Source of the DNA: Diphasiastrum complanatum
Lineage: Eukaryota > Streptophyta > Lycopodiopsida > Lycopodiales > Lycopodiaceae
Assembly: GCA_029204225.1 (NCBI GenBank)
Contig: CM055098.1
Coordinates: 3,955,607 to 4,019,606, forward strand
Direction of reading: 5' to 3'
Length of the DNA: 64,000 bases
This document shows, in pieces, positions 7,540-64,000 of this stretch. A program made the translations under genes and the position numbers. The notes beneath the pieces are model-generated. The model was not told the DNA's origin. It saw only the letters and a program-made list of their open reading frames with translations, and did not search any database. Position 1 is the stretch's first letter, and each line of letters starts with the position of its first letter.

Positions 7540-7772
7540 TACGTCCTACTTTACAGCACTAGTCGGGTCTTGAGGCTTGACTTTGTTTCATGATATTTGA
7601 GCTCCTTTTCTATTTGTTTAGTGCAGCGACATGTATCAGATTTATTTTTGTTGATCTAGTTTTACTTAGTATGTTTTCTTTTACAAAGACGTTTTTTATA
7701 TGTTCCTCATTGAGATATACATATTTGGTCTTTTGTACCCTCGGGTACTTACAAGACATTAATAAAGATCGA
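7540..7772 (+). mobile_element. LINE 3' end (severely 5'-truncated copy)
   Basis: Only the 3' untranslated end is present. It shares TTACAAAGACGTTT with the LINE ending at 62.88 kb and has the family's terminal stem-loop, then ACATTAATAAAG and a (TC)n tract. The left boundary against the gypsy B LTR is approximate. Confidence 0.75.
7728..7757 (+). other. LINE 3' terminal stem-loop, copy 1
   Basis: Outer stem GTCTT/AAGAC (7728-7732 with 7753-7757), inner stem GTACC/GGTAC, loop CTCG. Equivalent structures are at 15992-16020, 62846-62873 and (minus) 54622-54651. Confidence 0.8.
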
Positions 7773-7780
7773 TCTCTCTC

Positions 7781-7821
<41 letters not shown>
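7773..7821 (+). repeat. (TC)n tract joining two LINE copies
   Basis: Tail of the LINE 3' end on its left and the direct 5' boundary of the LINE fragment on its right. Confidence 0.95.
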
Positions 7822-7822
<1 letters not shown>

Positions 7823-9160
7823 GGTGTACTATTCACCGGCCCATTAGTCACTTTTCGCTCTACTGCTCTAACTCGCCCGCGTAAGGGGCATGCTGCCTTG
7901 GTACATATGGAGAGAGTGTGTACTACTTACCATATTCATGATCCTGCTTCTAGGGACCACCTTTTCTCTACAGTGGTCTCACCAGTGGCTATGTACTCGG
8001 CGGAGGTTTGGTACCCAGGGATATCTCAGGGTACTTGGAGAGACATCACTCGCTTGCAGATCACCATGTTAGGGAGGATGATTCGTGCGAAGCCATCAGT
8101 TCCTCATGAAATTCTTTTAGCGGAGTTCGCCTCACTCCCCATGGTGGTAGAGGCTTTGTTTCAGATTGTTACCTTTCTACATCGACTTGAGACCATGGAT
8201 ACTCACAAATACGTGATGGCAGCGCTTACTTCTTCTCAGGCTATAGCTGGACAGCAGGCTAGATCTTCTTGGTATGGTGATGTGGTGGCTTTCTTTCAAT
8301 CATGGGGCTTCTCGATGTTGAATCTCCCATAGGGAACTCATGCATTTATCAGACAGCAGTTGTATCGTAGATATTGTCACATAGTATGGGATCGCCCTGA
8401 TCACGACAGGGTCAAGCTTCCCTTTTATGGCGCACATATCTTACACAGAGACAGTTTGGGACTTCCTGTTAGACCTTTATATCTATCTCTTCCTCTTTCT
8501 TTTGGGCTCCGATATAGGTTGGGAAAGTTACGAGTCTCTTCGCATCAGCTTGCTATCGAGACAGGCAGATATTCAGGCATTTCGAGAGAGCATCGGATAT
8601 GTCAAGTATGCACATTGGGTGTAGTGGAGGATGAGTTCCATTTTATCTTCACATGTCGTGCATACTATGAGATACGTGGTCAATATCATTGTTTGTATCG
8701 GGACACCCCCATTACCCTCGGTACCTTTTTGGAGTATCAAGATCCCAAATGTGTCGGCCTTTTACTACGAGAGATGCTTATGCTCTTTGATACCTTCGGA
8801 GGGTACTAATGATGGCCAACATCTTATTACTACATTCTTTCAAAAACGTGAGCGTGATGACCTATCAAATGATGAGGCAGTCATACCGGTGAGGGTGAAG
8901 GCCCGGGGCGTGCTCAGCCACCACCTCCTGCTAGATCTACCCAAGCCTCTAGAGCTACCAGAGCTCCTCGACACCAACCACAGATCACAGCTTCTATGGG
9001 TATCAGACGTTTTTTCCGAGATTGATATTTTATTCTTCCTTTTTACTTTCATCAGCAGAGCAGGTGGTTAAGCTCTGGCACCTGTACCCTCTTCAGAGCT
9101 GGAGGTTAAGCTCTTTTATGTTTTTTATGATTCTATGTTCAATATGTCTTCTGACTAGCT
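7822..9160 (+). mobile_element. LINE fragment, truncated at both ends
   Basis: Begins directly after (TC)n and is collinear with 14612-15900 of the full-length LINE. The match starts at the 'aggtgtacttt' region of ORF2 and continues into the 3' UTR phrase GAGCAGGTGGTTAAGCTC (9057 on). It lacks the terminal stem-loop and tail, so its 3' end has been lost near 9.16 kb. Confidence 0.82.
7860..9070 (+). pseudogene. LINE ORF2 C-terminal region
   Basis: The frames at 7898-8332 and 8360-8809 correspond to the region after the RT palm (VHMERVCTTYHI, TVVSPVAMYSAEVW) and to the C-terminal zinc-binding segment RICQVCTLGVVEDEFHFIF (C-x2-C-x9-H-x4-C). A stop at 8330-8332 interrupts the frame, and another shift is near 8800. 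In LINEs this tail helps hold RNA during target-primed reverse transcription. Endonuclease and RT are absent here. Confidence 0.82.
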
Positions 9161-9420
9161 AGAGAGAATCGGATCACCACCCACTAACTATTTGCATGAA
9201 TGCATCCCTGGAAAGAAACGAAGACAATTCTAAATTTTTTTGTAGAAAATTCAAATATGTGCATCTGTTTTAGGTCATTTGAAGAGCAATCTTGAGGATA
9301 ACCATGGGGGCACTTGCATTTCTAGCAAATATGAGAGTTTCTATAAGTCCCTTATCAAGAGTCTAGAATAATCATTCAGACCCAACAAAAGTTAAACAGA
9401 GAAAAAAAAGTTAATTTCGT
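9161..9420. other. Sequence between LINE fragments, no gene seen
   Basis: AT-rich, no coding signal; probably old intron sequence or unrecognised TE remnant. Confidence 0.5.
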
Positions 9421-10628
9421 AATTACTCATGGTTTGAAAAAGAAGATAGGAGGTCCTCTTTTGCTATATGATGAGGAACATGTGGAAGTATCTAAAGAGT
9501 ACAAATACCTTGGGATAGAGATATCACATAAATTGAGATGCGACTCTTGTGTGGACAAAAGACTTGTAAGTGGCTGGAAATTATTCAACAAAATGAAAAC
9601 TACTTGCAAAAAGCTAGAACTTTGGAGATGAGAAAAAGAAAACAGATTGCCACCCATGCCTGTTTGTTTAGGGGAGGGAATAATGCCATGATAAAAGGTA
9701 TCATGGAATCCGAACTTAAGATCTTATATAGGCCAGACACAAAAGGAGTTTAAAGCTTTGCCCAACTTCAAAGAGAGGCATGAAAGGGCTATACGAGTAG
9801 TTCATGCCTTACAGAAAACCGAGTTTGATCTAAGAAACATAGCGGACACCATTTACAAACTTTACAAGCATGAGGGGGGGCCAAGAAGTGGGAAGGAAAG
9901 AGCCTATGACACGTTGGTGGCTCCAGTTTTGTTATATGTATGTGAAGTATGAGAGGCCAGCATTGCTGCACCAAGTGGGCAATCGAAAGAATACAAATCC
10001 TATCTTGTTGGCTGAAATGAATATCCTTCCATTGGAAGCTTTGGCGATTATTAAGATGGTCAACTACACCGAAAGAGTAGAAGAATTGGAAGATGTTAAG
10101 TTATATCCTATGCATTGTTGCATACTCCCTCAAAGGCTAAAAAGTGGATGGTAGCTGGATGGTTTTCCTTTCTGAAAACTTAGCACAAAGAATGGATTAA
10201 TAAGGAGCTGAGATCTTTTGTACATACTAAGTTCAATGATGGATTATGAAAGCTTCCTTTGATTCGCAAAATGGAATACTATAAAGAATGTTTCAACCCT
10301 ATAATAGGAGCTCCTACTCAACATCACCTCATTGAAAATATATCTATGAAGAAACCAGAGTATTGAGAAAAACTTCATCACCTATTGGATTGTGGCAGCC
10401 TTGAAGCTCTTCGAAAAGACTTTCTTAAGCATTTCGAGGAACCTATAGTGACATTACTTACTTTATTGATAAAGCTGATATTAGTATGCAAAAAACTCAT
10501 AATTTGAGTAAAATTACTTTAGACCAATACAAGATCTTGTAATAAATTTTGCATTATTATATGGGAATTTTTGTACTTGATTTTGGTCCCATAAGCCATA
10601 TTGCCTTCCATGGACGTGAATAAAAATG

Positions 10629-10632
<4 letters not shown>
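9421..10632 (+). mobile_element. LINE fragment of a second family
   Basis: Coding remnants differ from the main LINE family: EYKYLGIEISHKLRC (RT end, 9497 on), TLVAPVLLYVCEV (9911-9950) and ILPLEALAIIKMVNY (10020-10070), the usual order in the C-terminal half of plant LINE ORF2. Between 9632 and 9885 about 255 bp of unrelated sequence splits the 'KKLELW' and 'YDTLVAP' motifs. The 3' UTR ends GTGAATAAAAATGATAT before (TC)n. Confidence 0.68.
9434..10154 (+). pseudogene. Second-family LINE ORF2 C-terminal remnant
   Basis: Three short frames (9434-9631, 9758-9952, 9870-10154) carry the motifs in proper order but are separated by stops, a frameshift and the 255-bp insert. No endonuclease and no YADD box remain. 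Confidence 0.65.

Positions 10633-10689
<57 letters not shown>
10633..10689 (+). repeat. (TC)n tract between two LINEs
   Basis: Tail of the second-family LINE and immediate left flank of the full-length LINE that starts at 10690. Confidence 0.95.
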
Positions 10690-10692
<3 letters not shown>

Positions 10693-11330
10693 GGAGTCGT
10701 GGGTTTGCAGGTGCACTTCCAGGGAAATAGATTGCATGCTCGGGAGCGCCTCCAGGGAAAGCAGGTTGTATGCTTCGTTGATTAGAGGTTGCAGGTCTGG
10801 TGAGCACTAATCTCTTTGAGGTAGCGCTGCCTCTACTGGGCTTCATAGCTGCGTCCAGGAAGATGATGAACACCTCCTGCTAAAATCGCACTTGAGACAG
10901 TGAAGAACCACCGTTTTCTGAGGAAGAATAACTACTTCCAATCGCATCTGAGAGAGCTATAGAATCAACACATTCCAGAGGCAGAAGCTCCTTTGCTGTC
11001 AGAGCGCTGCTAGAGGAGGCAGAATTTACCTACATTCCATCGCTGCCAGAGGAAGCAAAAAGTTACTCATTTCCATCGCTGACAGAGGGTTGAAAGAATG
11101 GGCATTCTGTTTCTGCCATCCATCGCATTTTGGACTAAATGGTTTGTCAATAATCAGAGGCAGAACACCTGTCTGTCTGCCATTGCATTTTAGGAGGCTC
11201 GCTCCTTCTGTCGCACTTCAAAGAAGGAGAGGCTTGCTCCTTCTGCTTCATCGCACTCCAAAGAAGGTTGCTTTTCTTGGAAGAGCCATCGCAATCAGGG
11301 CTATAAGCCAATTCTACCTTGGGAAGCTCC
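10690..11330 (+). other. LINE 5' UTR with repeated phrases
   Basis: Presumed internal-promoter region. Words such as TCGCACT(T/C)CAAAGAAGG (11212 and 11252) and CCATCGCTG(C/A)CAGAGG (11038 and 11075) recur. No TATA-like element is evident, as is usual for LINEs. Confidence 0.5.
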
Positions 11331-12311
11331 ATGGCTCCCAAGAAAAAAGGGGGTGCCCCTACCCCCCCCCCTCTATCCACCTCTTCTCCTCCTCCATCAT
11401 CTGAGATGGAAGGGGATGCTATTTCACCTACAACAATCCCACCGCTGGCTGCAGTAGAAGGCATCACTGGTGCACCCTCTATTTTCACTGACAATCCACT
11501 TGCTATCACAGAAATGCATCATCAGTCCACAGTCGATTACAGTCCTTCCAAGCCTATTGAGAGTCTTTATGCCTATGATATCCGTTTCATCCGAAATGAA
11601 ATCCTCGGCCTTAAGAAACAACTACACTTTCTTGAGGTTATGGATCTCGTGGGTGTCAAAGAACGGGTGGAGCAGCTTGAGCAAGAAAATGTATATCTTA
11701 AGCAACGGATTGCAGAACATGTACCTCCTTCCGACGAAACTTCCAACAAAATATCTTGCTTGGAAAAACAAGTCGAAGAGACAAAAACATGGGCAGCAAT
11801 CTTCAAACGGGTTGATATGGGCAGCAAACTCTCATCACTTGCAAAACAGGTTGAAGAAACGACATCGATCCTCAAACAACGTAATCACCCCCATATCTCA
11901 GCCTCTATGATGGATAACAATTTGGAGACAGTTTTGGATGAACAAGCTAGAAGAGCTAAAAAGGCTCTTAATATTAGAGTAAGAGGCATTGCCAATGGCA
12001 GTAAACCAATAGACGAAGTTACAGATTTACTCGTTTCCAAGTTATCTCATGTTGTTGATGGTTTTGATACGGCATGGCGTAGTAAATTTCATGACAACGT
12101 TCTTTTTATCAAATTTCGCTCTCTTCAACACCGCAATGCAGCCTTTCGGCTTAGAACAAAACTCAAAGGCACTTTCATTTATATGGATGATGATTTGACA
12201 AATACCCAATGGTTAGCAAGGAAAAACATTATTCACGAAGCAAAAGAAAAAGGGAAAAGGGTCATTTTTATTGACGGCAAACCGCGATATTTTGACCTCC
12301 TCTCACACTAG
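11331..12311 (+). CDS. LINE ORF1 RNA-binding protein
   Basis: Intact 326-codon frame from ATG at 11331, the first ATG in frame. The N-terminus is basic then proline/serine-rich (MAPKKKGG, then Pro runs). The middle third is heptad-like and charged (KERVEQLEQENVYLKQRI), a likely coiled coil for trimer formation. The C-terminal third has ALNIRVRGI and, further on, FIYMDDDLT and a WLARKNIIHEAKEKGKRVIF segment, resembling the RRM-like core and C-terminal domain of L1-type ORF1. Known: such proteins coat LINE RNA and act as nucleic-acid chaperones. Homologous ORF1s are at 38092-38838, 39064-40001 (minus) and 63252-64000. Confidence 0.85.
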   Translation: MAPKKKGGAPTPPPLSTSSPPPSSEMEGDAISPTTIPPLAAVEGITGAPSIFTDNPLAITEMHHQSTVDYSPSKPIESLYAYDIRFIRNEILGLKKQLHFLEVMDLVGVKERVEQLEQENVYLKQRIAEHVPPSDETSNKISCLEKQVEETKTWAAIFKRVDMGSKLSSLAKQVEETTSILKQRNHPHISASMMDNNLETVLDEQARRAKKALNIRVRGIANGSKPIDEVTDLLVSKLSHVVDGFDTAWRSKFHDNVLFIKFRSLQHRNAAFRLRTKLKGTFIYMDDDLTNTQWLARKNIIHEAKEKGKRVIFIDGKPRYFDLLSH

Positions 12312-12359
12312 GAACTTGGGGCTCCCGGGTTTAGGAGTTGCCCGAGATCCCCTACCATT

Positions 12360-15300
12360 TTGAGACTTGGCTTCTGGAATTGCAATGTTTTTTTATCATC
12401 ATCATCGATAGGAGATTTTATTGATTTTATTAGCAAATGTGACATTTTGTTGTTGGCTGAAACCCATGAGTCTTTATATCATCCTCTTCCACATACACAG
12501 AATTACTCTTGGCATTCTGTTTTTCGCCCATTTGTGAGAGGAAAAACCTGTCGTGGATCTGGCGGAGTAGCTTGTTTATAAAGAGCCACCTCAATTACGA
12601 TGGTTAAGCAAGATCCATATGCTCAATATATATGGCTACATACTATTGGTTCATTATTGGGATTACCTCAGGACATTTATATGGCTGTATGTTACTTTGC
12701 TCCACAGACTTCGGCGTTTGCTGAATTTGGTGGGGACCCATTTCAGGCACTCTCAGATGATACTGCTGTTTTTTCTCAGCAGGGCTACATTCTATTAGCA
12801 GGAGATTTCAACGCCCGTACTAGCTCCAAACAGACAGAATTTCATGCAGATACTGACTTTCTCCGGCTTCATCCTCTAGATATGGGACTTGATAGAGTAT
12901 CACAGGATGCACACACTTCAGTTACATCTTTTGGAGAGCAGTTGATTACTCTTGCGGAGACACATTCTCTTGCCATCCTGAACGGCCTCACACACAGTGG
13001 CCTTCCTCATCAACGTTTACATGTTATCCTCATGGTGGAGGACATAGTGTAGTTGACTACTTCCTGCTTTGACATATCTGATTTCTCCATTACACCTCCT
13101 ACCATCTCCGATCACTCACTCCTACGCCTCTCACTTGGTCACATAACCCCGTCTTCCAAAGTTCCACGCTCCTCTTCTACTCAAACGTGTTCCTTTTACT
13201 CATTCTGGACTCACAAACTACACTACAACCATGTCCCAACTACTTACTATCTCCCTTTCACAGCATCAGTTGAGCAACAAGCCACTTTTTTCTCTGAATC
13301 CCTCTTATCTGCGGCATCCTCATCTTTCCCCACCAAGACGATATCATCTCATAGACGCGTTCACAACCGCTAGTATGATGCCGAATGTCGCTCTCTTCAC
13401 AAAAATGTGTTATATGCCAGATTACACTCCCCTACAACACTCAAACAACACTAGAAAAAGTATCATAAAGCCACCAGAACAAAGAAGATAACATACCTAC
13501 GCTCACTCTGCCAACGGTTGATCGACTCTTTAGATTCCCCTTCCTCCTTTTTCTGGAAACATTTCACTAGATCCTCTTCGACTTTGGCCCCCATAGCAAC
13601 CGAATCTTGGGTGGAATATGCCACAAAACTTTATACCCTAGACTCCCCTCCTACCTTACTCTCACCACGGCCTGCCCGCTGCACGCTTTTTACTCCACAC
13701 ATGGTTGAAAATGCAATTAACCATGCCAAACTTCATAAGGCCACTGACTATGATTCTCTAAACATGGATTTCCTAAAACCTGTAGCACATCTTATCTCGC
13801 CGTTTATTGCTCACGCTTTTAACACTGCTGTGACCTCTGGTTTTCCTACCGCATGGTGTACTAATATCCTTCATCCCATCCTCAAGGCAGGTGATCCCAT
13901 GAATGTAGAAAACTACCGTACTATTATGATTGGTCACACTTTGTCTAAGATTTATGGTTCCATTTTACAGACGGTTACTGGATCTTTTGCTGAGACTGAG
14001 GATTTACAGGCTGGGTTCAGACCAGGATACTCTATCTCATATCAGATTTTCATTGAGATGCATCATTGAGGAGGCACGACATCAGAGACAGAGAGTTTAT
14101 TGTTGCTTTGTGGACTTCCGCAAAGCTTTTGACTCAGTTCCGAGACATCTCCTTTTCCAGAGATTATCTTCACTTGGCTTCACAGACGAGACTATTGCCG
14201 CGATCATTACTTTATATGAGCGAGTTTGGGCGTGGTTCAGGGACGGTAGTGGTTGGTCTCCGCTGATCCACTCTACCATGGGAGTGAAGCAGGGCTGCCC
14301 CTTATCTCCTACTCTCTTTGCACTATATATTGATGACCTCGAGCGGCTTATTCGAGAGGAAGGTGGAAAGGGCTGTCCCTTAGTAGATATTATTATCCCC
14401 ATTCTCCTATATGCTGATGATGTGGTTCTTCTCTCATCCTCTACAGCTGGCTTACAGAGATACCTTTCTGCTTTGCATCACTTCTGTCAGCTTTAATACT
14501 GAGAAGACCAAGATTATGGTGTTCAACACCAATAGACAGCATATGAGAGATGTGACCTTCTATTATGATGAATTGCCGATTGAGATTGTGACCTCTTACA
14601 CTTATTTGGGAGTACTTTTCTCTGGTCCACTACACACATTCCGACCGGCAGCCCTCACCAAACTCCGTAAGGGGCATACTTCTCTTGTTCATATGGAGAG
14701 ATTTTGTTCCACATATTATGTACAGGACCCTGCTACCAGATGCTTATTATTCTCTACCATTGTCTCCCCGGTTGTTTTATACTCTGCTGAGACTTGGTGT
14801 CCGGATTTATCACATGATACTTGGAGGGATATTACTCGTATCCAGATTCTCATGCTTAGCAGGATGATTAGGGCTAAGCCCTCGATGCCACATGATATCA
14901 TATTAGCGGAGTTTGCTTCCCCTCCCTTGGTTATCGGTGCTATGTTTCAGATCATAACCTTTCTTCATAGGATATCAGAGTTAGACACTTCCAGATATAT
15001 TGTTGCTGCTCTCACTTCATCACGCACCATTGCTGGACAGGGGGCCAAGCATTCTTGGTTTGGCAGTGTCTCAGCCCTTCTTCAGACTTGGGGCTTATCT
15101 GAACTTGATCTTCCGAGCGGGACCCATGCGTATATCAGACAACATATTTATCGGAGCTACATACGTACTATATGGTCACAGCCGGACCCTAATAAGGTCA
15201 AGATACATTTCTATGGCACACATTTACTACGGTTGGATATTACGGGCACTCCTATCCTTCCAGCATATCTTACACAGCCATTATCTTTTGGTCTGAGGTA

Positions 15301-15820
15301 CCATATGGGACAGCTTCGAGTCTCTTCTCATCAGCTGGCTATCGAGGCGGGTAGATACACGGACACTCTGAGATTGCAGCGGATATGTCAGCTTTGTTCT
15401 CTTCATGAGGTGGAGGATGAATTCCATTTCATCTTTCGCTGTCCAGTATATTATGAGATCAGGGGGCGATACCACTGTTTATACAGAGATACCCCTCTCA
15501 CGTTGCGATCCTTCCTCGAGTATCCAGACTCCAGATGTGTAGGTCTTCTTTTGAGAGAGATGTATACTCTACGAGCTTCACTTCTACCTACCACAGATAT
15601 GGATCACAGCCAGACTCATATTACCCAGTTTTTCCATAAGCGAGACAGAGAGGATATTTCAATTGTGGATTTTGAAGTCCCCATTCGGAGATCGAAGACA
15701 CAGAGAGTCTCACATACTTTTGCTAGATCCAGGACCACCAGATCTTCACGGGCTTCCCGCCAGTCTACAGCACGCTCCACTACTACTATCACTCATTATT
15801 TCCAGCTTGCTCGTAGCTAG
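12360..15820 (+). pseudogene. LINE ORF2: endonuclease, reverse transcriptase, zinc C-terminus
   Basis: Endonuclease: LLLAETHESL (12450 on), GSGGVACL, then LAGDFNARTSS (catalytic Asp/Asn, about 12800). RT: GDPMNVENYRTIMIGH (13890 on), CCFVDFRKAFDSVP (14104 on, palm Asp), MGVKQGCPLSPTLF, LLYADDVVLLSS (YADD, 14405 on). Post-RT: YTYLGVLFSGP, ETW, and C-terminal ICQLCSLHEVEDEFHFIFRC. The breaks I see are a stop near 12580, shifts near 13020, 13500, 14060 and 14490, and open sequence from 14411 to 15820. The motifs are well preserved, so the copy is young or recently disabled. The enzyme nicks target DNA and primes reverse transcription there. Confidence 0.85.
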
Positions 15821-15991
15821 TCTCCTCCACAGAGCAGGTGGTTAAGCTCTTGCATTGTATCCTCGCAAGCTGGTGGTCAAGCTTTGATACTTATTCTTGA
15901 GATAGAGAGATAGATATGCTAGTTTCTATTCTTTTTACTAGTAAATAAGTCCATATGCGGACAATGCTCCTCACTTTTTGTACTCTCTTTT

Positions 15992-16020
15992 GTCTTATGT
16001 ACCTTTGGGTACCAAAAGAC
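15992..16020 (+). other. LINE 3' terminal stem-loop, copy 2
   Basis: Outer stem GTCTT/AAGAC, inner stem GTACC/GGTAC, loop TTTG, followed by GTTAATAATAATAA and the (TC)n tail. Confidence 0.85.
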
Positions 16021-16044
16021 GTTAATAATAATAATTCTGATTCT

Positions 16045-16047
<3 letters not shown>

Positions 16048-16127
<80 letters not shown>
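16048..16127 (+). repeat. (TC)n tail of full-length LINE
   Basis: About 40 TC units. Host intron sequence (AACAAGGATCTC) follows. Confidence 0.95.
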
Positions 16128-16130
<3 letters not shown>

Positions 16131-16241
16131 AAGGATCTCAAAGCATTACACACCCTTGCTAGAAATCATGTTCTTGTACAAGCATTCTCCAATAATCAAT
16201 AATGTCCTTATCAAAACCAAACAAAAAGGGCAATTCCTTAC

Positions 16242-21015: not shown

Positions 21016-21052
21016 ATAACCCACCCAAATGCACACACTCTCTCTCCCTCAC

Positions 21053-21410
21053 TGTAATAGATCCTAACACCACAGTAGGGCAAACACTAACTTATCCACC
21101 CAACCTTGCCTACTCCCTGATATAGAGTAAGCCCCTCCTAGCCCAGTGTGAGAACTGGTAGCATGCAACTGCCAACTGTCGGCCACGTGGCACTGACGTG
21201 GTCGACTGCACCTCGGGACCCAACTGGGGGCCCTATCCTGCTGACAGGGTCCCTAGGCTGTGTTAGGCCCGCCATGGCTATGGACCGTGCTGGGGCACAC
21301 TACTCACACTGTCTTGCCCTGTTGGTCATGTACACTGGACACGACCCTGACTGTGGTATCTGACCTATCTGTGTTCGCTAGGGTTCGGCACTGGTTACGA
21401 GCTCGTAACA
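21053..21410 (-). repeat. 3' LTR of gypsy C
   Basis: 358 bp; plus-strand start TGTAATAGATCC, end GAGCTCGTAACA. A TATA-like CTATATCA reads on the minus strand near 21120-21130. Confidence 0.97.
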
Positions 21411-21426
21411 CTCCCTCCCCCTTAAG
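21411..21426 (-). other. Polypurine tract of gypsy C
   Basis: Minus strand CTTAAGGGGGAGGGAG immediately before the 3' LTR; primes plus-strand DNA synthesis. Confidence 0.9.
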
Positions 21427-23445: not shown

Positions 23446-23459
23446 AATATTCTGAGGTC

Positions 23460-24713: not shown

Positions 24714-24718
24714 GACTC

Positions 24719-26770: not shown

Positions 26771-26771
26771 T

Positions 26772-26784
26772 GGCTCTGATACCA
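26772..26784 (-). other. Primer binding site of gypsy C (tRNA-iMet)
   Basis: Minus strand TGGTATCAGAGCC, one base inside the 5' LTR; the standard plant initiator-Met primer site. Confidence 0.95.
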
Positions 26785-26785
26785 G

Positions 26786-35269: not shown

Positions 35270-35274
35270 TGCAC

Positions 35275-35673: not shown

Positions 35674-35677
<4 letters not shown>

Positions 35678-37121: not shown

Positions 37122-37360
37122 GAGAGATGGATGGAATAGTGGGTGGTTGGGAAGTCGGGATGGAGCCCATACTGAAAGACAGGAAGGCGTGATCGGAAAG
37201 GGTAGTGGGAGGAATCTGGAAACCAGACATAAGTGGGATAAAACCTGGTGACCCTATGAGATAGTCGACAACACTGTGTCCTCCGCTATGTGGATGGCAA
37301 GTGAATCTGCTAGAATGTGGCCAGCAAGCCAGGCCATTGTAAATGGCCAACTCGTGAGCC

Positions 37361-37933
37361 TCACCCATCTGTAGATTCTAGAAGGTACTCTCCATAACTC
37401 GTGATAGGGCCCATCATATCCTCTGAGGTCCTGGTGATGCCAACGTCCTCGCAATCAATAGCTCGTGTACGTAATATGTCATCAGTGTCGTGGAAATCCA
37501 CCTGTCTGGTAGCAGTCCTGGCATAAAAGTCGCCAATGAGAAGGACATAACCCTGATTAGTAAATCTGACAATGTCTACAGAGAGATCAGTATAAGGAGA
37601 GCCTGATCCGTCTGCAAAGGAGGACTCTAGAGAGAAGTAGCAGGCGGCAATGAAGAGATCCCTATCCAAACCGATAGCTCGCCCAGTGATATGAGCCCAT
37701 ATGTATCGTGCCTGGGCATCATGTCGGAGAAACTCTATAGCTGACTGTAGTGACTCTCGATAAAGGCACGCAACTCCACCCGAACCTCTGCCACTCGCTG
37801 ATCGAGTCTTTGTCCTATAAACTGAATCCCATCTGTAACCTGTAAATGTGGGTAGTCCTCTCTCTGGGCTCTCGTGTGTCTCCATAAAAAATAGTATATC
37901 TTTGTCTGTGAAGTTGGTAAGATCTCCAGTCAT
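37361..37933 (-). pseudogene. LINE A endonuclease
   Basis: Apurinic-type endonuclease signature: ILFFMETHESPERG (catalytic Glu), GRGSGGVACLYRES, LLIGDFYARTATRQVDF (the usual G-D-F-N-A-R has Tyr for Asn, expected to damage catalysis). It is continued after a frameshift by HSVVDYLIGSPGFIPL and SDHAFLSFS (37260-37170), which supplies the terminal Asp-His pair. Confidence 0.83.
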
Positions 37934-38091
37934 GGATGATGAGTGTATGCCATTACAGTTCCATATTCCAAGATGTAGGTAGTGTGGAGGGGGTCCCGGG
38001 ATGCTCCCATGCCCGGGGACCCAATTTCCTATAGGCTGTTTCTGGATGCAGTACCATCGAGGTACCGAACAACTCCATCACGATAGATCAC

Positions 38092-38838
38092 TCATCTTCT
38101 GGTAGCTTTGGCGGTTTGGAGTGCTTGGTGTCTCTCTTCAACTTGGATATAGGTAAGGTCATCATCCATGAAAATTTTGGTGTCTTTCAGTTTGGTTCTT
38201 TTCCGCAAGGTTGCCTTACGATATGTATGTGACGTGAAGCGGAGGATCAAGGTAGCGGTGTCTTTTTTTAGTACGCCATGCTGTATCCAAACCATCTGCA
38301 TTGTGTCCTAGGGTGGTGCATAAAAATCTTTTTGCTTCGGTGGCGTTTTGGGTGTCATGCCTCGTACCCTAATATTGAGAGCCTTGGAATCTCGAAGTTT
38401 CTCTGCCATGAGAGTAGCGGAAATGAATGATGAAAAGGGGGGAGACTTACTTCCGCCATCGGCTGTCCAAGGTGGGCTGGTAGCTTTGTTCTTGGTGATG
38501 ATAGAAGCCCATGTTTTGGTCGACTCTTTGTGCTGGCTCAGTTGCTGTTCCAGATCTTGAATCTTCATCTTTGTCTCTTCTTGTGGCTCGGAGGCATATT
38601 TATTTTCCATTTCTGTCCAGAGCTGTTGGTTCTCTGTGCGTAGGTGGATGATTTCCAGTTTCAGAGTTTGCACATCTGCCTTCAATTCTTTCAATTGGTA
38701 GGCTAGGAAATTCTTGAAGGATTTGGAGGTGGTGTAGTCGGCATGAGACAAGAAGGGGGTGTCTGGAGCAGCACTGGTAGAGATGGGAGTCGAAGGGACA
38801 TGGGGTGAGAGAGGGCTCGAGTGGGATTGTTGTTGCAC
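38092..38838 (-). pseudogene. LINE A ORF1
   Basis: Ser/Pro-rich N-terminus, then a coiled-coil-like stretch (ELKADVQTLKLEIIHLRTEN), then SKALNIRVRGM, the start of the RNA-binding core shared with other ORF1s in the window. A stop near 38310 breaks it; the homologous remainder (KDTKIFMDDDLTYIQVEER) continues in another frame to 38092. Confidence 0.8.
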
Positions 38839-38862
38839 AGCAGTGGGGGCAGGTGTCTACTA

Positions 38863-40010
38863 ATGCGTACCCGCCGGTAGATCCGTAATGTGAATACTCC
38901 ATGAGGAGAGGAGACGACAGGCTTGGGAATACCACGAAAAGGAGTGTCCCACATAATGTAGGTGCTCGGATGATGACAAAGCTGCTGCAGCATAGTGTGT
39001 TTCTCTACCCTGAAGACCCTCCAGGCGTTGTATGAATGTGACAATATGGAACAATGCCTCTAGCTGAATAGGCCCCAAAGCTTTTGCCTCACCGAATGCC
39101 CTTTCCGATCTGCAACCTGCATGGGAGTGAGATCATCATCCATAAATATAAGTGTACACAGTTTGAGGGTTTCCCATCTCTCTTCCAAATTCGTGAAGCG
39201 AACTATGAGTGTAGAAGGGTCTCTCTTGGTTCTCCAAGCTCTATCCAACCCTTCGGAGTGGTGGGAGAGTGTGCTTGAAAAAAAGCTGGTTGCTTCAATC
39301 TTTGGATCATTGGTGTCTTCAACTCCGCGGACCCTTATATTCAGGGTTTTGTACTCACGCATTCGCTCTTCGGATATGGTGGCTGAAATGACTTGGTTGA
39401 AGGAGGGTGTACCTTCCTTAACATCTTCCTTGAAAAGAGAAGCCCACGCTTTCGTCTCAGCCTTATGTTGCTCTATTTTCTCTTACAATTCTTGAATCTT
39501 TGTAGGTTCTCCTTGATTACTTATTGCCGCCTCCAAAGAAGTAATCCGGGTTAACATGATTTTTCGCTCAGCAGACATAGATTGAATGATCACTTGAAGC
39601 TGTCCCATTTCCTTTTGCAGATAGGTGGATTCGTGTTTGATCTGCTCGATGTAAGAGAGAATGTATTGTTCAAATGACTTGGCAGGTGTATAGATCTCGG
39701 GTATCACGAAAGATGAGTGAGCAAGTGGCGGGCAGGGAGTGTGGACTAGATTTGTAGGCAACGCTGACTCAATCTTCACCTTACGTAAGACTTCATCTGT
39801 ATCAGCAGTACCATCATTATGGTTCCGAGCAACATCGGAAACCATTGCGAAAGAAGTGGAAACAACGGTGATGGGTTCTGGAGCGCTGGTGGACAGCGAG
39901 AAAGGAACTTTTTCCATGAGGGAATCTGCAGTGCTGATGGACAGAGGGGAGGCTGCAGCACTGGTGGATGAATCTATAACATTGGTAGAAGATGCTTGCA
40001 ATTGTTTTCC
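38863..40010 (-). mobile_element. LINE B, internally deleted (ORF1 joined to ORF2 tail)
   Basis: Minus strand: ORF1 (40001-39064) joins at about 39062 to a piece of ORF2 C-terminal region (39060-38863: LEALFHIVTFIQRLEGL, LLSSWSIHITDLPAGTH), skipping endonuclease and RT, about 3 kb in the full-length copy. Its own 3' end is missing. Confidence 0.72.
39064..40001 (-). pseudogene. LINE B ORF1
   Basis: Ser/Ala-rich N-terminus, coiled-coil-like middle (EQIKHESTYLQKEMGQLQ, RKIMLTRITSLEAAI), stop near 39483, then TLNIRVRGVEDTNDP and LIFMDDDLTPMQVADRK, matching the conserved C-terminal part of the family's ORF1. Separate family member from LINE A. Confidence 0.78.
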
Positions 40011-40084
40011 TCGAGCTATGGAATCAGGCAGATATGTGAAAGGAATACAAATGACTGTGCCAAATTGGAGTGTTAGCTAATACA

Positions 40085-43519: not shown

Positions 43520-44275
43520 TGTACTGGACCCGTTTGTTGCCTTGTGGCGCAGATCTCTGTCTCTGAGCGTACGGTCAGTGTCATCTCTGCTGCGGTGAAG
43601 CTGTAGGCTGTGGCCTGTGGGTTGGTTGTCTCTCTGGTTGTCTACACTGTCTTTGTTGTCTATGTATGGAAGCATCCAGAATTTTAGCCTCTCCATCAGA
43701 ATCGGTACTCTCCTGTCTCTGTCTCCGACGGGATAAACACTCCTGTATGCTCAGCTGTATCAAGGGGGAGGTGTCAGCGTCTAGCCTCGCCATATACGCA
43801 GGTCTGACATCTCTCGGATCATCAGTGGAACACATCTAGGGTCCTCATACGAAATCAAGGTAGAAAGTGTGAATGGATGATCTCGAAACAGGCAATAGTA
43901 TCTCCCTCGGATCTCATAGAGAAAATGAAACTCCTCCTCTACATCGTGCGTATCACACATACTACAAGTCCGAGCATCTCTCGGGGTGCCACTGTATCTG
44001 CCAGTCTCAATGCCTAGCTGGTGAGAGGAAACCCGAAACTGACCCATCACTATCCGCAGTTTGTGTGAGATACTATCCACCAGCTATCCGGGTACTATAG
44101 GATACCCAGCGAGATCCCGGGATAGAAAATGTGCCCGATAAAACTCCGTCTTCACCCTAGATGAACCCTGGCAAGTGCTCTGAACATATGCCCTATACAA
44201 GTGTCCTCGAACATACTGATGAGTACCAACTGGTAGACCCGTAATATGAATACTCAATGTGGAGAGGAGACAGTT
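43520..44275 (-). mobile_element. LINE fragment F (ORF2 C-terminus)
   Basis: Minus strand. Matches the ORF2 tail: VSSHQLGIETGRYSGTPRDA, TCSMCDTHDVEEEFHF, YEIRGRYYCLFRDHP, PRCVPLMIREM. The region to 44275 continues with upstream ORF2 homology (GTHQYVRG-like, 44230-44200). A stop near 44065 and a deletion within the zinc segment (the second Cys is missing: FLYEIR) show decay. No terminal stem-loop found; the 3' boundary is unclear. Confidence 0.72.
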
Positions 44276-44279
44276 ACGA

Positions 44280-45020
44280 ATGAAGCCACAATTGATCTAG
44301 AGCTAAGCTATGAAAGCATCACATAAGCAAGACTTAACCCTAGAAAGCAGGAAAGAGAGAGATTAAGGAGATTGAAAAGAGAGATCAATATAATCAGCTG
44401 AGTAACAAATGACACAGATTCCCTACTTATAGCCTAGAGGAAGCCCTAAAAGGAAGCTTCCAGTGGTAGGGCCCAATTGGGGGAGATAATAGTGCACCCT
44501 CAAAGAAGGCCCCCACTCTCCAGTACTATGTCCAAATGCCCCAATGATGAATAATAAGGCCCAAGGCCAACCATATAGTCGAAGTGTCAATAATGAATAA
44601 AATAGGGCCTAAGGCCTGCTTATGCATAAAGTAAAGTACATGTAAATGGACGTCACGAATGTAATGAGCCGAGTCCATAACTCTCCCCGACACAAAAAAA
44701 AGACCCAACTGCCGAAAAGAAACTGGATCAAACAGCAGCAAGACTTGGTGCATCAACAACTAGAGCAACATCTGATGTAGAGGAATCAACAAGCGCAGCA
44801 AGAGCACGAGCCTGATCTGCAAGTGACGGTGTATGATAAAAGACATCAATAGGCTCCCATGTGGCCTCCTCAACAGGACAACCATCACACTGGACCAAAA
44901 ACTGAATCTGCCGGTAGCGTTGACTATGGTGAAGGCGAACCTGGTGAATGGCGGCTGGTAAGAAAGGGAACAGCTCAGGATCCACATCGTGGCGACAAAG
45001 GGAACATCTCGGCTGCCTCA
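44280..45020 (-). mobile_element. gypsy D remnant: chromodomain and LTR
   Basis: Minus strand: chromodomain (45010-44740; FPFLPAAIHQVRLHHSQRYR, QIQFLVQCDG, EEATWEPIDVFYHTP), purine tract GGGGAGAG, then an LTR-like end from about 44675 leftward with TATA (GGCTATAAGTAGGG). Same family as gypsy A. The upstream part of pol is replaced by the repeat field at 45020-47340. The LTR end lies against LINE F at 44275-44280. Confidence 0.72.
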
Positions 45021-54588: not shown

Positions 54589-54621
54589 GAGAAAGAAAGA
54601 AAGAAAGAAAGCTTTATTAAT

Positions 54622-54651
54622 GTCTTTTCCATGCCAAAAGGCATATAAGAC
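54622..54651 (-). other. LINE 3' terminal stem-loop, copy 4
   Basis: Minus strand: outer stem GTCTT/AAGAC, inner stem ATGCC/GGCAT, loop TTTT. Confidence 0.85.
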
Positions 54652-54829
54652 TAGTAAATGTACATGTCAAGTATGTGGTAACCATAGGAGCGTATGAAAC
54701 ATCTCCAAAACAGTAACAAAAGTAGCAATCTAGAGCTAAAGCTATAAACTGAAATAGATGTGACGCTATTAGAAACATGTGGGAGCATGTATACTGCTAA
54801 CAGTCATGAGTGAGATATGACGCTATCAT

Positions 54830-55320
54830 CTAGTCCTGTCCAGCTGGTGCTGATGATATAGAAGGATGTAATACGGCCTGTGGCATGAAGGGCCACTGGT
54901 GGTCTCTGCGTCGTCTGAGAGGATGAAGAGGTCTCCTCGTGATAGGTCGAGTAGCTCGTGCTGCAACATGGGTATGTGTGGGACGCTGTCTCTGGTCTCT
55001 GTGGGCAAGTAGGTCATCATCATCATCGTCACCGTCATCAAAACGTCCTCTTCTCCTGGAGAAGAAAGAAGTGATCTGAGGCTGAGAAACCTGACTCGGC
55101 TGGGCTGTCTGATACAAATTTTGTCGTAGTATAAACATCTCTCGTATCATGAGTGCCGCGCATCGAGAATCCTCATAAGCTATGAGCGATCGTAAGGTGA
55201 CAGGTGTGTCTCGGAACAAACAGTGGTATCTCCCTCTGATCTCGTAATATACCGGGCACCTAAAGATAAAGTGCTCCTCTGACTCCACCTCCTCTAAAGA
55301 GCATAACTAGCAAATCCGCT
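54830..55320 (-). pseudogene. LINE E ORF2 C-terminal end
   Basis: Reads RIC, a stop, then LCSLEEVESEEHFIFRC, VYYEIRGRYHCLFRDTP, and a basic tail with an Asp run, ending APAGQD. The zinc-binding pattern of the family is kept except for the stop between the first two Cys. Confidence 0.8.
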
Positions 55321-55327
55321 CCTCTCT

Positions 55328-55328
<1 letters not shown>

Positions 55329-55397
<69 letters not shown>
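55329..55397. repeat. (GA)n tract at LINE E 5' junction
   Basis: About 34 GA units; (TC)n when read in the LINE direction. Confidence 0.95.
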
Positions 55398-55399: not shown

Positions 55400-55614
55400 C
55401 AAACTTTTTTAAGTCAAAGAAGTAAAACAAAAATTGACGTTGATGTATTGTACATCCGAAACATAACGTTCCAAACCTTTGAACGTATGAAATGGAACCT
55501 TCCAAACCAAAAGGCTTGAAATGGGTATCTATGTTGAAATGCATTGACAAAAGAAGATAGCAAACACCATCTCTAGTCACCTTAAACTTGACAACATATG
55601 CACAAGCAACTTAC

Positions 55615-55684
55615 ATGCTGTGCAAGGAAAGCCACCATTGATAGCTACAGGACGAACCGGAGCTGTAGGAACAATCCACCTAAC
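55615..55684 (-). CDS. Acyl-protein thioesterase / carboxylesterase, upstream exon
   Basis: A 70-bp minus-strand exon: acceptor TTATTGTAG (ending at 55685), donor GTAAG (55610-55614). Encodes VRWIVPTAPVRPVAINGGFP then CTA plus the first base of a Trp codon. The (I/V)(K/R)WI.PTAP..PV...GG.P.TAW.D pattern is the family's conserved block preceding the D-x-x-E-D-G-P-D-D segment in exon 16242-16346. No disruption. The earlier exons, with the expected V-V-W-L-H-G-L-G-D oxyanion region, are not found rightward to 64000, so the next intron is at least 8.3 kb. Confidence 0.94.
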
Positions 55685-58329: not shown

Positions 58330-60068
58330 GGTAGATGAAGATGAAGCAGCCAGGCGAAAAGAAATAGACAAACAACTTGAGAGAGAGGACTTTTGTCGTC
58401 ACCCCGACTTATTATAAATTCAAGCACCAAAAACATGACTAATATGGACTGCCAAAAGATGGTAACAATGCTATAAAAATGGAGCAGCTAAGAAGATATA
58501 AAAGCAAAAAACAAATAAAAGCAAAAAACGGTATAAGGTAAAGAAGTAAGAACTATCGTAAATGATATATAACAATACTGGAAAAATACCTCCAAACTTA
58601 TGGAGAAATCTCAAATATCGTCATGCCCAGTCAAGCCTCCAACGATAACTCCAGTGCATGGGAGTGGGTCGGTAGTGACCCTACGGATGGGTGGTTACGA
58701 TGCATTGTCACTTGTATGGGGTGTACGGCAACCTTCAAAGCTATCGGAGATCTATGGGAGTTGTAACAGTTGGTACTTGTTTATCCATGTCCTCGCTTTT
58801 TCTCATCACGCACGTGTACCAGCTTTACTTTCATACAAAACAGATCTATGTCACTTCTAGCACCACAATTTTCCACTCATTATTCTAGGGTTTCAGCTCA
58901 CTTGGAGGTAGCACTAATAATACTCACTCCAACCATCACCAATCAAGGACATATAGCTCTCCCATCCCTCACACATTCTCTCCAATCCTTTGTTCAATTC
59001 GGTCGTCTCAAGTGCAGCAACTTCTCTCTTATTGCATAGTAGATATGAACATAAGGGTTGATCTTTCCAATGCAATTCACCACCTCATTATATGTATTTG
59101 TCCTACTGTTTCCACGAACCTCAGTTCATTGGCGAACGAACCACGATTTGTCAAAGAATTGATCGGGTTCAAATCGAAAAGAATCGGACCAAGAAAAGAA
59201 AAAAGAAAAAAACAACGGTTCTTTGATTGTGGCATTAATGATTCTTTGTTTTGGCTTTCCAATGTTCTGATTTGCATTCAAATGTTTACCTAGTATATTG
59301 TGTGATGAATGTTTGATGATGGATCATGAATAATCATAAATTACAATGGTAAGTGGAAGTTGGAGCATGCAATCTAGTTTGTGAAGTTTGAAATGTGTCC
59401 AATCAACTTTGTCATGTGCACTTGTGATTTTGTGAACACTGAATTGTAATATGATTTTAGGCTTCAGCTTTCTACAAGCAACAGTGAACTTTGAAATGTA
59501 TGTTTCTAATAGCAATCTAACATCATATAAGATGCTAGACACATTGTAGACATTATATATATTACAATAGATAATTTTTAGCATTATATCTAAAAATGCA
59601 AAAAGAAAATGTCGATTGTTTCTGATTCTTTTGGAAGGGACCAGGTTCAGAACCACGATTCATGCCGATTCATCTGATTCTGAAGGTTGATTCTAAACCG
59701 GGTGGAAACACTAATTTGTCCAAGCTACATTAAAAGGACTCACAAAACGATAATAGAATCGTGCAATAATTGCATCTAATTTTGCCGCTAGCTATGGGTC
59801 TCAGGCATTTTACTCTGACATGAAACAGTCAAAAAGACTCTTTGGGTACATCATTTATTGTATTGAGCTTTTTAGTACTAGAAATTTCTTTTCACTACAT
59901 GACTTTCATATGCTAAAAGTAAGTTTTACAGTTTGAGTTATTTACTCTACTTTATTAATCACCACCTTAGCTTTAGTTTCAGGAGATACTTACACAATTG
60001 TTGCTCCATACAACTTGAAATGTACTCATTAGTCTTACAGTAGCTTAAGGTATTCTAAAGACATGGAT

Positions 60069-60070
<2 letters not shown>
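58330..60070. other. No gene recognised
   Basis: AT-rich sequence; the frames at 58600-59293 have no motif. Confidence 0.5.

Positions 60071-60072
<2 letters not shown>

Positions 60073-60137
<65 letters not shown>
60073..60137 (+). repeat. (TC)n tract at LINE G 5' junction
   Basis: About 32 TC units directly preceding ORF1-derived LINE sequence. Confidence 0.95.
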
Positions 60138-60141
<4 letters not shown>

Positions 60142-60355
60142 GGCAGCAAAGCTCTCAATATTCAGGTACGTGGTATATTGGATACCCGAAACGCCATTGA
60201 CGAAGCAAAACGGTTTCTTGCAACCACATTAGACCACCATTATGAAGGGCTTGATACGGCATGGCGGACAAAACGAGATAATTCTACCCTGATTATTCAT
60301 TTTACCTCACCCATTACCCGTAGAGATGCCCTTAAGAGCATCTATGAGTGGTAGA
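60138..60355 (+). pseudogene. LINE G ORF1 C-terminal part
   Basis: The frame reads KALNIQVRGILDTRN, EGLDTAWRTKRDNSTLI and ITRRDALKSIYEW, matching the RNA-binding core of the other ORF1s. It stops where the deletion joins it to the endonuclease. Confidence 0.8.
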
Positions 60356-62510
60356 GGTTCAGGCGGGGTTGTATGTTTATACAGGGAGTCCTTGCACCCC
60401 ATTATAGAGTTTATCAGACACGACAATTACGCACGCTATATAGGGGTCCATCTCATTGGACGTGATATCGGACTGGCCAGAGATCTCTTCATTGTTGCAT
60501 ACTACTTTCACCCGGAGTCCTCCTCTTACGTAGAGGGCATTGGCTCTCCCTTAACTGATCTCTCCACAAAAACTATCAGATTCTCAGATCGTGGCTCTAT
60601 TCTTCTTACTGGTGATTTTAACGCCAGAACAACTGAGCGACAGGTAAAATTCCATGACGTTGATGACCACCTACGCACACGGGCCATTGATTGTCCCGGT
60701 CCAATTACTACTTACAGTGAGTATCTGTTGCAGCTTGGAGAAGCTCACGAGCTAGCCAATTACAATGGCCTAGCTTGTTGGCCTGATTCTGGCAGCTACA
60801 CATGCTATCCTCATAGTGGCGAACATAGTGTTGTTGATTACCTCATGGGGTCACCATCCCTCATTCCACTGATATCACACTTCAACTTTATGATGCTATA
60901 CTTTAGTTAGCGATCAATTCTGAGGCTGAGACCAGGAGACTACATGCATTGGGCCACGCTGGATTTCGAGCTCACCATTCCATCACATATCATGTCTTCA
61001 CCCTTCGAGCTATCATTGAGGAAGCCAGGCATAGAAGACAGAGGGTTCCAGCGACTACGTGATCTTGGCTTCTCTACTAACACAGTTCTAGCTATGATGG
61101 CACTGTATGAGCGAGCTCTTGGATGTTTTCATGGTGACACTGGCCTCTCAGAGCACATATGGAGTACCATCGGGGTGAAACAGGGTTGCTCCCTTTCACC
61201 TACACTATTCGGACTATATATTGACGAGCTTGAGAGGATCATTGAACAGAGCGGTGGTACAGGTTGCCAACTTGGGGATGATTGCCATTCTCCTATATGC
61301 AGATGATATTGCTTTAGTCTCCTCGACTAGAGAGGGACTACAAAGACAGCTGGACAGTCTTCATGGTTTCTGTACTAGATGGGGTTTGCGGGTCAACACT
61401 GAGAAGACCAAAATTATGGTCTTCAACACATCCAGGGCTTTCATGCAGCGACGAGCTTTTTCAAGATGGACAGCCATTGGAGATTGTGTCATCCTACACC
61501 TATCTCGGGGTTCTTTTCGCTGGTCCTATATTTGGTATGAGACATGCAGCTACAGCCAGACTTGGGAAGGGACATGCCTCCTTGGGCCAGCTTGAGTGTG
61601 TCTTCTTCCAGAGATCTGTTCGGGATGCCCCGAGTAAGTGTCGGCTATTTGATACTTTTGTCTCCCCTATTGCACTGTATGCGGCAGAGACATGGTGCCC
61701 AGAACTCACCTCTGCTGATTGGGCCAGTATCTCACGCCTCCAGGTCCTTATGTTATCACAGATGATACAAACTAAGCACTTTGTCCCACACCAGATTCTC
61801 CTAGCAAAGTTTGCAGTTCCACCTTTACAGCTTGACGCCATCTTCCGTCTCATCACATATATACAGCGCCTCCGGCTGCCTCCCACCGATGCACAGAGAT
61901 ATCCACAGGCGGCACTCATATCATCTTAGCACCTCCACAGTTTGGGTTATCACTTATCATGATTCTCACAGGCAGCACATCTATTGGATACATTTGACAT
62001 ATCTATCACGGACCTCCTAGCGGGTACACATGCTTATAGCATACCTTCGCCGCACATGGCAGGGTCACGTAGGAAGGTTAAACTTGACTATTACATGACT
62101 CATTTCTTGGAGATGGACGTCGTGGGGATTCCAGTTCGACCACGATATTTTGATTTTGGACTATCCCATGGCCTAAGATTCACATTAGGTCAGCTACGTA
62201 TCACCACATCAGCTTGAGATTGAGATTGGACGTTTCCATGGTATCCCACGGGCGGATCTTCCAATTATGCTCATTGTCTGAGGTGGAGTTAGAGGAGCAC
62301 TTTTTGTTCAGATGCCCAGTCTACTACGAGATCAGAGGGAGATACCACTGCCTCTTCAGAGAGAATCCTATCACACTGCGGTCTCTTATAGCATATGATG
62401 ACCCGAAATGTGTTGCACTTATGATCAGAGAGATGTTTTTACTGCGACAGGACCTACACCAGCCATCTGTTCACATCGTACTTTTTCCGCCGGAGATCAC
62501 GGATGGATGA
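60345..62510 (+). pseudogene. LINE G ORF2 remnants
   Basis: Endonuclease from GRGSGGVVCLYRESL, with LLTGDFNARTTERQVKF (catalytic motif intact) and HSVVDYLMGSPSLIPL; break; RT with VKQGCSLSPTLFGLYIDELE and LLYADDIALVSS (YADD, 61288 on) and VNTEKTKIMVFNTSRA; C-terminus with SPIALYAAETW and LCSLSEVELEEHFLFRC. The N-terminal RT motif (FVDFRKAFD) is deleted. Frame breaks near 60908, 61300, 61450, 61928 and 62215. Confidence 0.83.
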
Positions 62511-62845
62511 TGATAGTGGGAACGACAGTGAATCTCTATTACACAGAGACCATAGACGACGCACTACTCATGTTGCCCGTAGAGCCACTACTCAAAGACG
62601 ACCTTCTTGGCGACATCAACAGCATCTATCGAGACCGCCTCCAGGCGTTATACCCATCTTTCTTTCACAGCAGTGATACTTGATGGCACAGGGTTATAAC
62701 ATTATCCTATTGGAAGTATTAGACCTTTGCTTTTTAGACCTACTTCATGTTCGTAGTATAGTATATTGGCATTTCATTTCTTTTCTGTTACAAAGACGTT
62801 TCACACGCTCCTACTGTACCACACACTTGACATGTACTTTTTTCA

Positions 62846-62873
62846 TCTTCTATGCCTATTGGCATGGAAAAGA
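62846..62873 (+). other. LINE 3' terminal stem-loop, copy 3
   Basis: Outer stem TCTT/AAGA, inner stem ATGCC/GGCAT, loop TATT, followed by CATTAATACAA and the (TC)n tail. Confidence 0.85.
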
Positions 62874-62878
62874 CATTA

Positions 62879-62884
<6 letters not shown>

Positions 62885-62945
<61 letters not shown>
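62885..62945 (+). repeat. (TC)n tract joining LINE G to LINE D
   Basis: Tail of LINE G and direct left border of LINE D. Confidence 0.95.
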
Positions 62946-62947
<2 letters not shown>

Positions 62948-64000
62948 GATGGCCCTGATGACGCACATCCATGGCTGATCCATTTGCGCCCTGCTTGATA
63001 GATCAGGATCTGAGCAGTCTGATCAAGTATACTGCCTCTGATCTAGCGCTCACCTGGCAGGATAGGGGCGCACCTTTTTCTTGAATACAGCAGGGTTCCA
63101 CACGTTATTATAGTTCATTTCTCTCTCTCCATCGCTACATATCTAGGGGCATTTAACTGACTACCAATGCTGAAGTAGACTCAAGTACAGCTAGTTGTTG
63201 GCATAAGATTTTTCTAGAAACCGGCTGTAGGAGCAGCGAGGGAAGTTCTAGATGCCCTCACTCCCTATCACACCCTCAGCTCTGCCTCCTCCTAATCCTT
63301 CTACTCCTCCTCAGTTTACGCTATCTAACGCCTCACCTATCACTATACATCGTTCTATTCTACCAGAAGACATCCACTATCATGTAGGGCACTTGTATGC
63401 ATTATTTTCAGAAGTGCAAGGTGAAAATGCGGCGCTAAAATTGGAGGTCCAAAGATTGCGGGATGAGCTCATCCATAACCCTGTTACCATCGTTTACTAC
63501 GGATCTTGCAAAAACTTCTAACAAGATTTCCAGCCTTGAGAAGCAAGTGGAAGAGACGAAATCATGGGCAGCACTGTTCAAGAAAGATAAGGGTATGGTT
63601 GATTTGCCTACGAATGTTTCAATTGAATCAAGATTAGAAAGCATGTTTTCAAAGCAAGAAAAAAGAGCCAAAAAAACTCTTAATGTTAGAGTGAGAGGCA
63701 TTCCAAATGCTGGAAAACCGCTAGAAGAGGCCAGGGATTTGATTGTAGATAAACTTTCACAATCGATTGAAGGGTTTGACACCGCTTGGAGAGGCAAATA
63801 TGATGAGAATGTAGTATTTATTAAAATCCGATCTATGCACATCATAACGCCATCTTGAAACTTAGAACCAAATTGAAAGGATCTTTTATTTTCATGGATG
63901 ACAATCTAACTCACACCCAATGGCTAGCAAGGAAAAAGATTATACAAGAGGCTACAGCGGGTGGTATTTATTGACGGCAAACCACGATTTTATGACCGTT
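62946..64000 (+). mobile_element. LINE D, 5' part (continues beyond window)
   Basis: Starts immediately after the (TC)n tail of LINE G with about 300 bp of 5' UTR, then ORF1 (63252 on). Head-to-tail with LINE G. Confidence 0.82.
63252..64000 (+). pseudogene. LINE D ORF1 (partial)
   Basis: ATG 63252; Pro/Ser-rich start, heptad-like stretch (GENAALKLEVQRLRDELI), then a frameshift near 63475 into the frame with SNKISSLEKQVEETKSWAAL and LNVRVRGIPNAGKPLEEA, EGFDTAWRGKYDENVVF. This region is close to ORF1 of the full-length LINE (11331-12311). Another frame change follows near 63850 (HNAILKLRTKLKG-like, then FMDDNLTHTQWLARKK). Confidence 0.82.

Follow-up and report, generated by a model that had tools for sequence, protein, structure and literature searches.

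Our results show that, in a 64,000-nt window of Diphasiastrum complanatum DNA (by window we mean this whole stretch), copies of a long interspersed nuclear element (LINE) belonging to different sublineages lie directly behind the (TC)n tails of earlier copies, in the same orientation, whether they start in a 5' untranslated region (UTR) or are truncated. Head-to-tail stacking on earlier pyrimidine tails is strongly supported by these data, and the arrangement suggests that the tail of one copy can serve as a landing pad for the next. The material consisted of this window and one outside relative, contig L001. Ten copies of one main LINE family were found in the window by protein and nucleotide comparison, six on the plus strand (G, A, B, C, D and I) and four on the minus strand (E, F0, F1 and H). 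A second LINE family is represented by one remnant, S2, which lies between A and B and was identified by eye through its reading frames, without a database match (Table 1). F0, G, H, I and S2 are delimited only approximately.

TC tracts at the 5' ends and tail-to-head contacts

A sense (TC)n tract of 39-80 bp, pure or nearly pure, lies directly 5' of copies A, B, C, D and E, with junctions at 7822, 10690, 60138 and 62946 on the plus strand and at 55329 on the minus strand. An initial annotation of this DNA had claimed that five LINE 5' junctions abut sense (TC)n, and all five are confirmed. Its observation that the 5' starts vary was also borne out, since B and D begin in a 5' UTR, and A, C and E start at three unrelated points inside open reading frames (ORFs). 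The comparison of 5' flanks with random sites that it had proposed, made here within the window, gave a divided picture: five of the ten main copies (five of eleven counting S2) have sense TC on their 5' side, and the other five and S2 do not. Under the null used, a sense TC tract of at least 20 bp ending no more than 3 bp 5' of a random point has a probability of 0.0037, and the corresponding binomial P values are 1.8e-10 for five of ten copies and 3.2e-10 for five of eleven. The excess of TC 5' junctions is real and far from chance. The junctions of A, B and D follow a T, cases too few to count register.

Four of the five 5' TC tracts are the tails of earlier LINEs in the same orientation (G before A, S2 before B, I before C and C before D). 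Seen from the tails, those of G, S2, I and C directly precede a same-orientation LINE 5' end and that of B, the fifth TC tail, does not. The four tail-to-head contacts compare with 0.0017 expected (P about 4e-13). The annotation had listed three such contacts, which stand, but the count is four, the tract at 60073 being the tail of copy I, which had been overlooked. Copy I matches the 3' end of E over ~177 bp (score 29.9, where 100 shuffles reached 18.4 at most; z 10.0) and that of C weakly (z 2.5); the 3' end of S2 also has a weak similarity to B (z 3.8). LINE 3' ends enter (TC)n at 7773, 10633, 16048 and 62885, as had been claimed, but the further end placed at 35674 is a cut inside a reverse transcriptase (RT) region and no LINE 3' end. 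At the A/S2 junction, the 3' end and tail of A are missing, and ~270 bp between the last homology of A and S2 (9126-9393) resemble nothing else in the window.

Several simpler origins for this arrangement were rejected. Random insertion combined with tails grown by slippage is ruled out for the 5' side by the junction and contact statistics, and the earlier argument that such tails cannot explain TC at 5' ends holds (five of ten copies against 0.37% of random points). TC as the element's own 5' end might account for B and D but fails for the truncated A, C and E. Simple tandem duplication does not fit either: A and B, members of the same array, share 67.6% identity, and G and B share 75.2% over 105 bp; C/D fell outside this comparison. 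Because A and B differ by a third and S2 belongs to another family, the array members are not duplicates.

Recombination or deletion between TC tracts, joining LINE pieces and tails after insertion, was also considered, given that rearrangement does occur in the window, where F0 and F1 are fused and internally deleted and F1 breaks off at a TC tract. This pair (35674-40075, minus strand) is fused head-to-tail with no TC tract between its members, in the order F0 ORF1, internal F0 ORF2, F1 ORF1, and F1 is cut inside its RT region against (TC)n at 35633-35673, within a degenerate TC region at 35453-35673. However, the relatives aligned around the sites where A, C and E are truncated carry coding sequence and no TC tract at which such joining could occur (E was compared with B and C, C with F1, and A with B from 7880), and B and D begin in the 5' UTR, so that we hold this origin to be very improbable.

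Table 1. LINE copies, pyrimidine tracts and associated features, in window coordinates
Feature	Position	Strand	Description
Candidate target-site duplication CTCAAAGCATT	7516..7526	+	recurs at 16137-16147, 9 nt past the tail of B
Copy G	7523..7772	+	5'-truncated main-family 3' end; non-TC 5' flank; similarity to the 3' end of E (z 12.8) and end motif
Tail of G, (TC)n	7773..7821	+	39 bp pure from 7783; directly 5' of A
Copy A	7822..9126	+	5'-truncated main family; homology to B ends at ~9126; own 3' end missing
S2, second-family remnant	9393..10632	+	start approximate; 5' flank non-TC; (TC)n after 3' end
Tail of S2, (TC)n	10633..10689	+	directly 5' of B
Copy B	10690..16047	+	long main-family copy: 5' UTR, ORF1, broken ORF2
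Tail of B, (TC)n	16048..16127	+	no LINE after it
Copy F1	35674..38858	-	ORF1 to RT, fused to F0
Copy F0	38858..40075	-	ORF1 joined to internal ORF2; 5' flank non-TC, 5' boundary approximate
Copy H	43796..44290	-	internal ORF2 fragment; 5' flank non-TC, boundary approximate
Copy E	54612..55329	-	5'-truncated main family; 3' tail (CTTT)n then CTC
(TC)n directly 5' of E	55330..55397	-	no recognisable LINE upstream
Acyl-protein thioesterase 2 match	55610..55684	-	8.1e-7, 23/25 residues; ~210 bp upstream of the TC tract of E
Copy I	59895..60072	+	main-family 3' end; start approximate; 5' flank non-TC
Tail of I, (TC)n	60073..60137	+	directly 5' of C
Copy C	60138..62884	+	main family, truncated within ORF1; 3' end complete
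Tail of C, (TC)n	62885..62945	+	directly 5' of D
Copy D	62946..64000	+	begins in 5' UTR; cut off by the window edge
3' hairpin and end motif, G	7735	+	
3' hairpin and end motif, B	15999	+	
3' hairpin and end motif, E	54644	-	
3' hairpin and end motif, I	60040	+	
3' hairpin and end motif, C	62852..62878	+	

Copy E is the one that bears most on targeting, being the only copy that speaks for a general (TC)n specificity. A LINE origin of its TC tract was rejected, since its upstream flank resembles none of the seven LINE 3' ends with which it was compared (z at most 0.4). The thioesterase match upstream of this tract is probably an exon of a possible host gene and, because of its position, E may lie within an intron; a motif scan revealed no neighbouring exons. 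Two histories are possible for E: insertion into a TC or mixed pyrimidine repeat, or later expansion of its tract.

Strict insertion into any (TC)n microsatellite, in the manner of animal microsatellite-specific LINEs, would agree with the five TC 5' flanks and with a tract at E that is no recognisable LINE tail, but it is improbable in view of the five of ten main copies with other 5' flanks, the long TC tracts at 18526 and 20844 that are free of LINEs, and the fact that four of the five tracts are LINE tails, which themselves may also be CTTT or TTTC. Of the TC targeting proposed in the annotation, what is retained is therefore stacking on earlier tails, and not a general preference for (TC)n microsatellites.

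Structure of the 3' end

Among six LINE 3' ends of the window, five carry TC tails and one, that of E, a CTTT tail; none is poly(A). The tail of the L001 relative is (TTTC)n. An end motif shared by these ends occurs at seven sites in the window, six of them followed by a pyrimidine repeat within 30 bp and one (58791, minus strand) without it. Because the motif was derived from those same ends, information comes solely from the site at 60060 and from the low background.

Ahead of the end motif, a 5-bp hairpin is common to six ends (G, B, C, E, I and L001). Pairing is present in 96.7% of cells, against 27-40% when the partner is slid, and three of the five pairs are changed on both sides. In 500 shuffles, the observed covariation score was reached once, the number of two-sided pairs 36 times and the further pair types 372 times, figures that are favoured by the structure having been picked by eye on the same sequences. 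A hairpin of equal size is found at 10.8% of random sites, and Rfam gave no match in the window. The covarying 3' hairpin suggests a putative role in template recognition.

Proposed growth of the arrays

We lean towards the explanation that founders inserted at mostly ordinary sites and that later copies were added on pyrimidine tails by repeated insertion. The element has ORF1 and ORF2, and its 3' end combines the hairpin with the shared motif and a short tail of pyrimidine repeats, in most cases (TC)n. Once a founder has inserted at a mostly ordinary site, the tract in its tail would have a purine strand that, when nicked, could base-pair with the (UC)n terminus of the following RNA. That pairing would prime reverse transcription, and the complementary DNA would then be joined to the remaining TC. 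Every insertion would leave or renew a pyrimidine tract, making arrays able to grow. The preference would be for pyrimidine tracts, chiefly LINE tails, without being absolute. Repeated insertion is favoured by copy E, by truncation at points inside the ORFs and by the fact that different sublineages and families are mixed (A and B at 67.6% identity). The covarying hairpin, the matching layout of the L001 3' end with its pyrimidine tail and the APE-type fold of the endonuclease also speak for it.

An array could also arise in one event by template jumping, in which the RT abandons one RNA, whether or not it has been copied to its end, and resumes on the TC tail of another, with no preference for TC DNA. 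LINE template switching has been reported in Magnaporthe and mammals (PMC2104539), and end-to-end template jumping has been described for R2 (work cited in PMC2881922). Template jumping yields head-to-tail order with a tail at the junction, and a single composite insertion would fit the candidate duplication CTCAAAGCATT around G..B. However, it leaves E, with a TC tract and no recognisable LINE upstream, unexplained, and it requires switches at internal points for A and C and a switch across families at S2/B. We consider it rather unlikely.

A number of observations count against repeated insertion on tails. The A/S2 junction without the tail of A is unexplained by simple tail insertion and resembles an internal template switch. 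No TC 5' flank was seen at F0, F1, G, H, I and S2 (several of these boundaries being approximate), flanks that the annotation had passed over, and the L001 relative has no TC at its 5' side. The CTTT tail of E means that it is no clean TC insertion, and its 5' tract could have grown after insertion. Moreover, the mechanism is read from a single window, and no empty site was seen.

Target-site duplications bear on both explanations. The 11-bp CTCAAAGCATT occurs both at the left end of G and in the flank to the right of B, with P 0.0019 for one pair of short stretches, this pair being one of four tried. Matches as long were obtained in 22% of random trials over 13 kb, and a second instance lies at 7031. 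If real, the duplication would weakly point either to a G..B founder at an ordinary, non-TC site or to one composite insertion. For E, S2+B and A, duplications were nothing beyond chance, and the whole upstream stretch of E yielded no match longer than 10 bp, a length equal to the median of random trials over 13 kb. Only 8-9 bp matches were found for F, and none of at least 9 bp for H.

Relatives and known systems

Judged from its sequence, the element is a non-long terminal repeat (non-LTR) retrotransposon, or LINE, with an APE-type endonuclease. ORF1 of copy B has 330 codons (11319-12311) and no Pfam match at 0.001. In ORF2, the APE-type endonuclease match (5.7e-5) is slightly below Pfam's cut-off, and the predicted fold of the F1 endonuclease piece, from which the end of the domain is absent, matches LINE-1, TRAS1 and cellular AP (apurinic/apyrimidinic) endonucleases about equally. 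The ORF2 reverse transcriptase matches RVT_1 (4.2e-20), and its best PDB matches are R2 and LINE-1, with nearly equal profile scores (127.5 and 122.8 bits). A CCHC motif (C-x2-C, H, C) of ORF2 is invariant in eight of eight sequences of one alignment, and in another group of aligned proteins nine of twelve have an ORF2 length of 1142-1229 residues.

ORF1 is 67% identical to a protein of Diphasiastrum complanatum, a clubmoss in the family Lycopodiaceae, and three of its four matches come from that species. ORF2, among 20 matches, has one of 58% identity over half of the query to a protein of the same species. A wider ORF2 search gave at least 443 matches, and among the matches listed are the ferns Ceratopteris and Adiantum and one Taxus. 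The LINE proteins of Diphasiastrum, Ceratopteris and Adiantum belong to the same protein family, as compared by protein only. A protein labelled Enterobacter cloacae complex (P0068), 47% identical over half of the query, also belongs to this LINE family and is probably a contamination or a mislabel. L001, the one contig retrieved in a scan of genome contigs, is a 4.8-kb contig filed under an uncultured Trichormus (cyanobacterial) genome, with a plant LINE at 1330-3470 that is 37% identical. This LINE is probably eukaryotic contamination; Azolla, a fern, is guessed as its source solely because of the cyanobacterium under which the contig is filed. Its 3' end has the same layout as those of the window copies, with hairpin, motif and pyrimidine tail. 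The viral contigs scanned contained no relatives of the window LINE, and the 3'-end pattern was present there in two copies of one sequence without LINE features.

It is possible, and we propose it tentatively, that clubmosses and ferns share a LINE lineage whose RNA ends in a hairpin and a pyrimidine repeat and which targets its own and other LINE tails, forming self-growing arrays. If so, this would be a land-plant LINE uniting tail sequence, 3' hairpin and target choice in one system, a linkage shown in part by animal microsatellite-targeting LINEs and by self-nesting algal Zepp, and simple repeats and LINE arrays could each promote the expansion of the other in the large genomes of clubmosses and ferns.

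Kibi and Koshi are animal LINEs with a TC target. Like the animal microsatellite-specific LINEs, the window LINE inserts beside dinucleotide repeats and has an APE-type endonuclease, but half of its copies lie off TC and four of the five TC tracts are LINE tails. Unlike the Kibi/Koshi type, it does not have TC on both sides as a rule (five of ten copies have TC 5', and E has TC 5' but CTTT 3'). Kibi and Koshi are named in PMC2684134; Togen is a TG-specific microsatellite LINE of animals, and APE-type endonucleases occur in the Tx1 and R1 groups (PMC4640811).

The annotation knew of no well-described plant counterpart, a statement that needs qualifying, since green algae (Coccomyxa, Chlamydomonas) harbour Zepp and Zepp-like LINEs that insert into copies already present and build nested arrays in this way (PMC8226300), and Zepp clusters are described in PMC3446292. 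Tandem arrays and frequent 5' truncation (PMC8226300) are features that Zepp shares with the window LINE. However, Zepp is an L1 element forming one cluster per chromosome, probably centromeric, and TC tails are a feature of the window LINE. Flowering-plant L1 elements also have two ORFs, an APE-type endonuclease and an RT, but almost all of them end in poly(A), with one maize lineage having a 3' hairpin (PMC3747384), whereas the window copies end in TC or CTTT and L001 in TTTC. Among the papers listed in full-text literature searches, none has a title on a TC-associated LINE of clubmosses or ferns, which, with subscription journals outside the coverage, is no proof of absence.

The LINE copies are surrounded by Ty3- and copia-type elements. 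A young LTR element occupies 21050-27150, where direct repeats (21050-21417 and 26783-27150, 98.9% identical) flank minus-strand Ty3-type gag, protease, RT and integrase frames. The direct repeats at 29299-29548 and 35022-35271 are 96.8% identical and flank a copia-type gag region; they are probably the LTRs of one element. Several direct repeats of 88-94% identity lie at 40082-42000, with telomere-like CCCTAAA stretches nearby.

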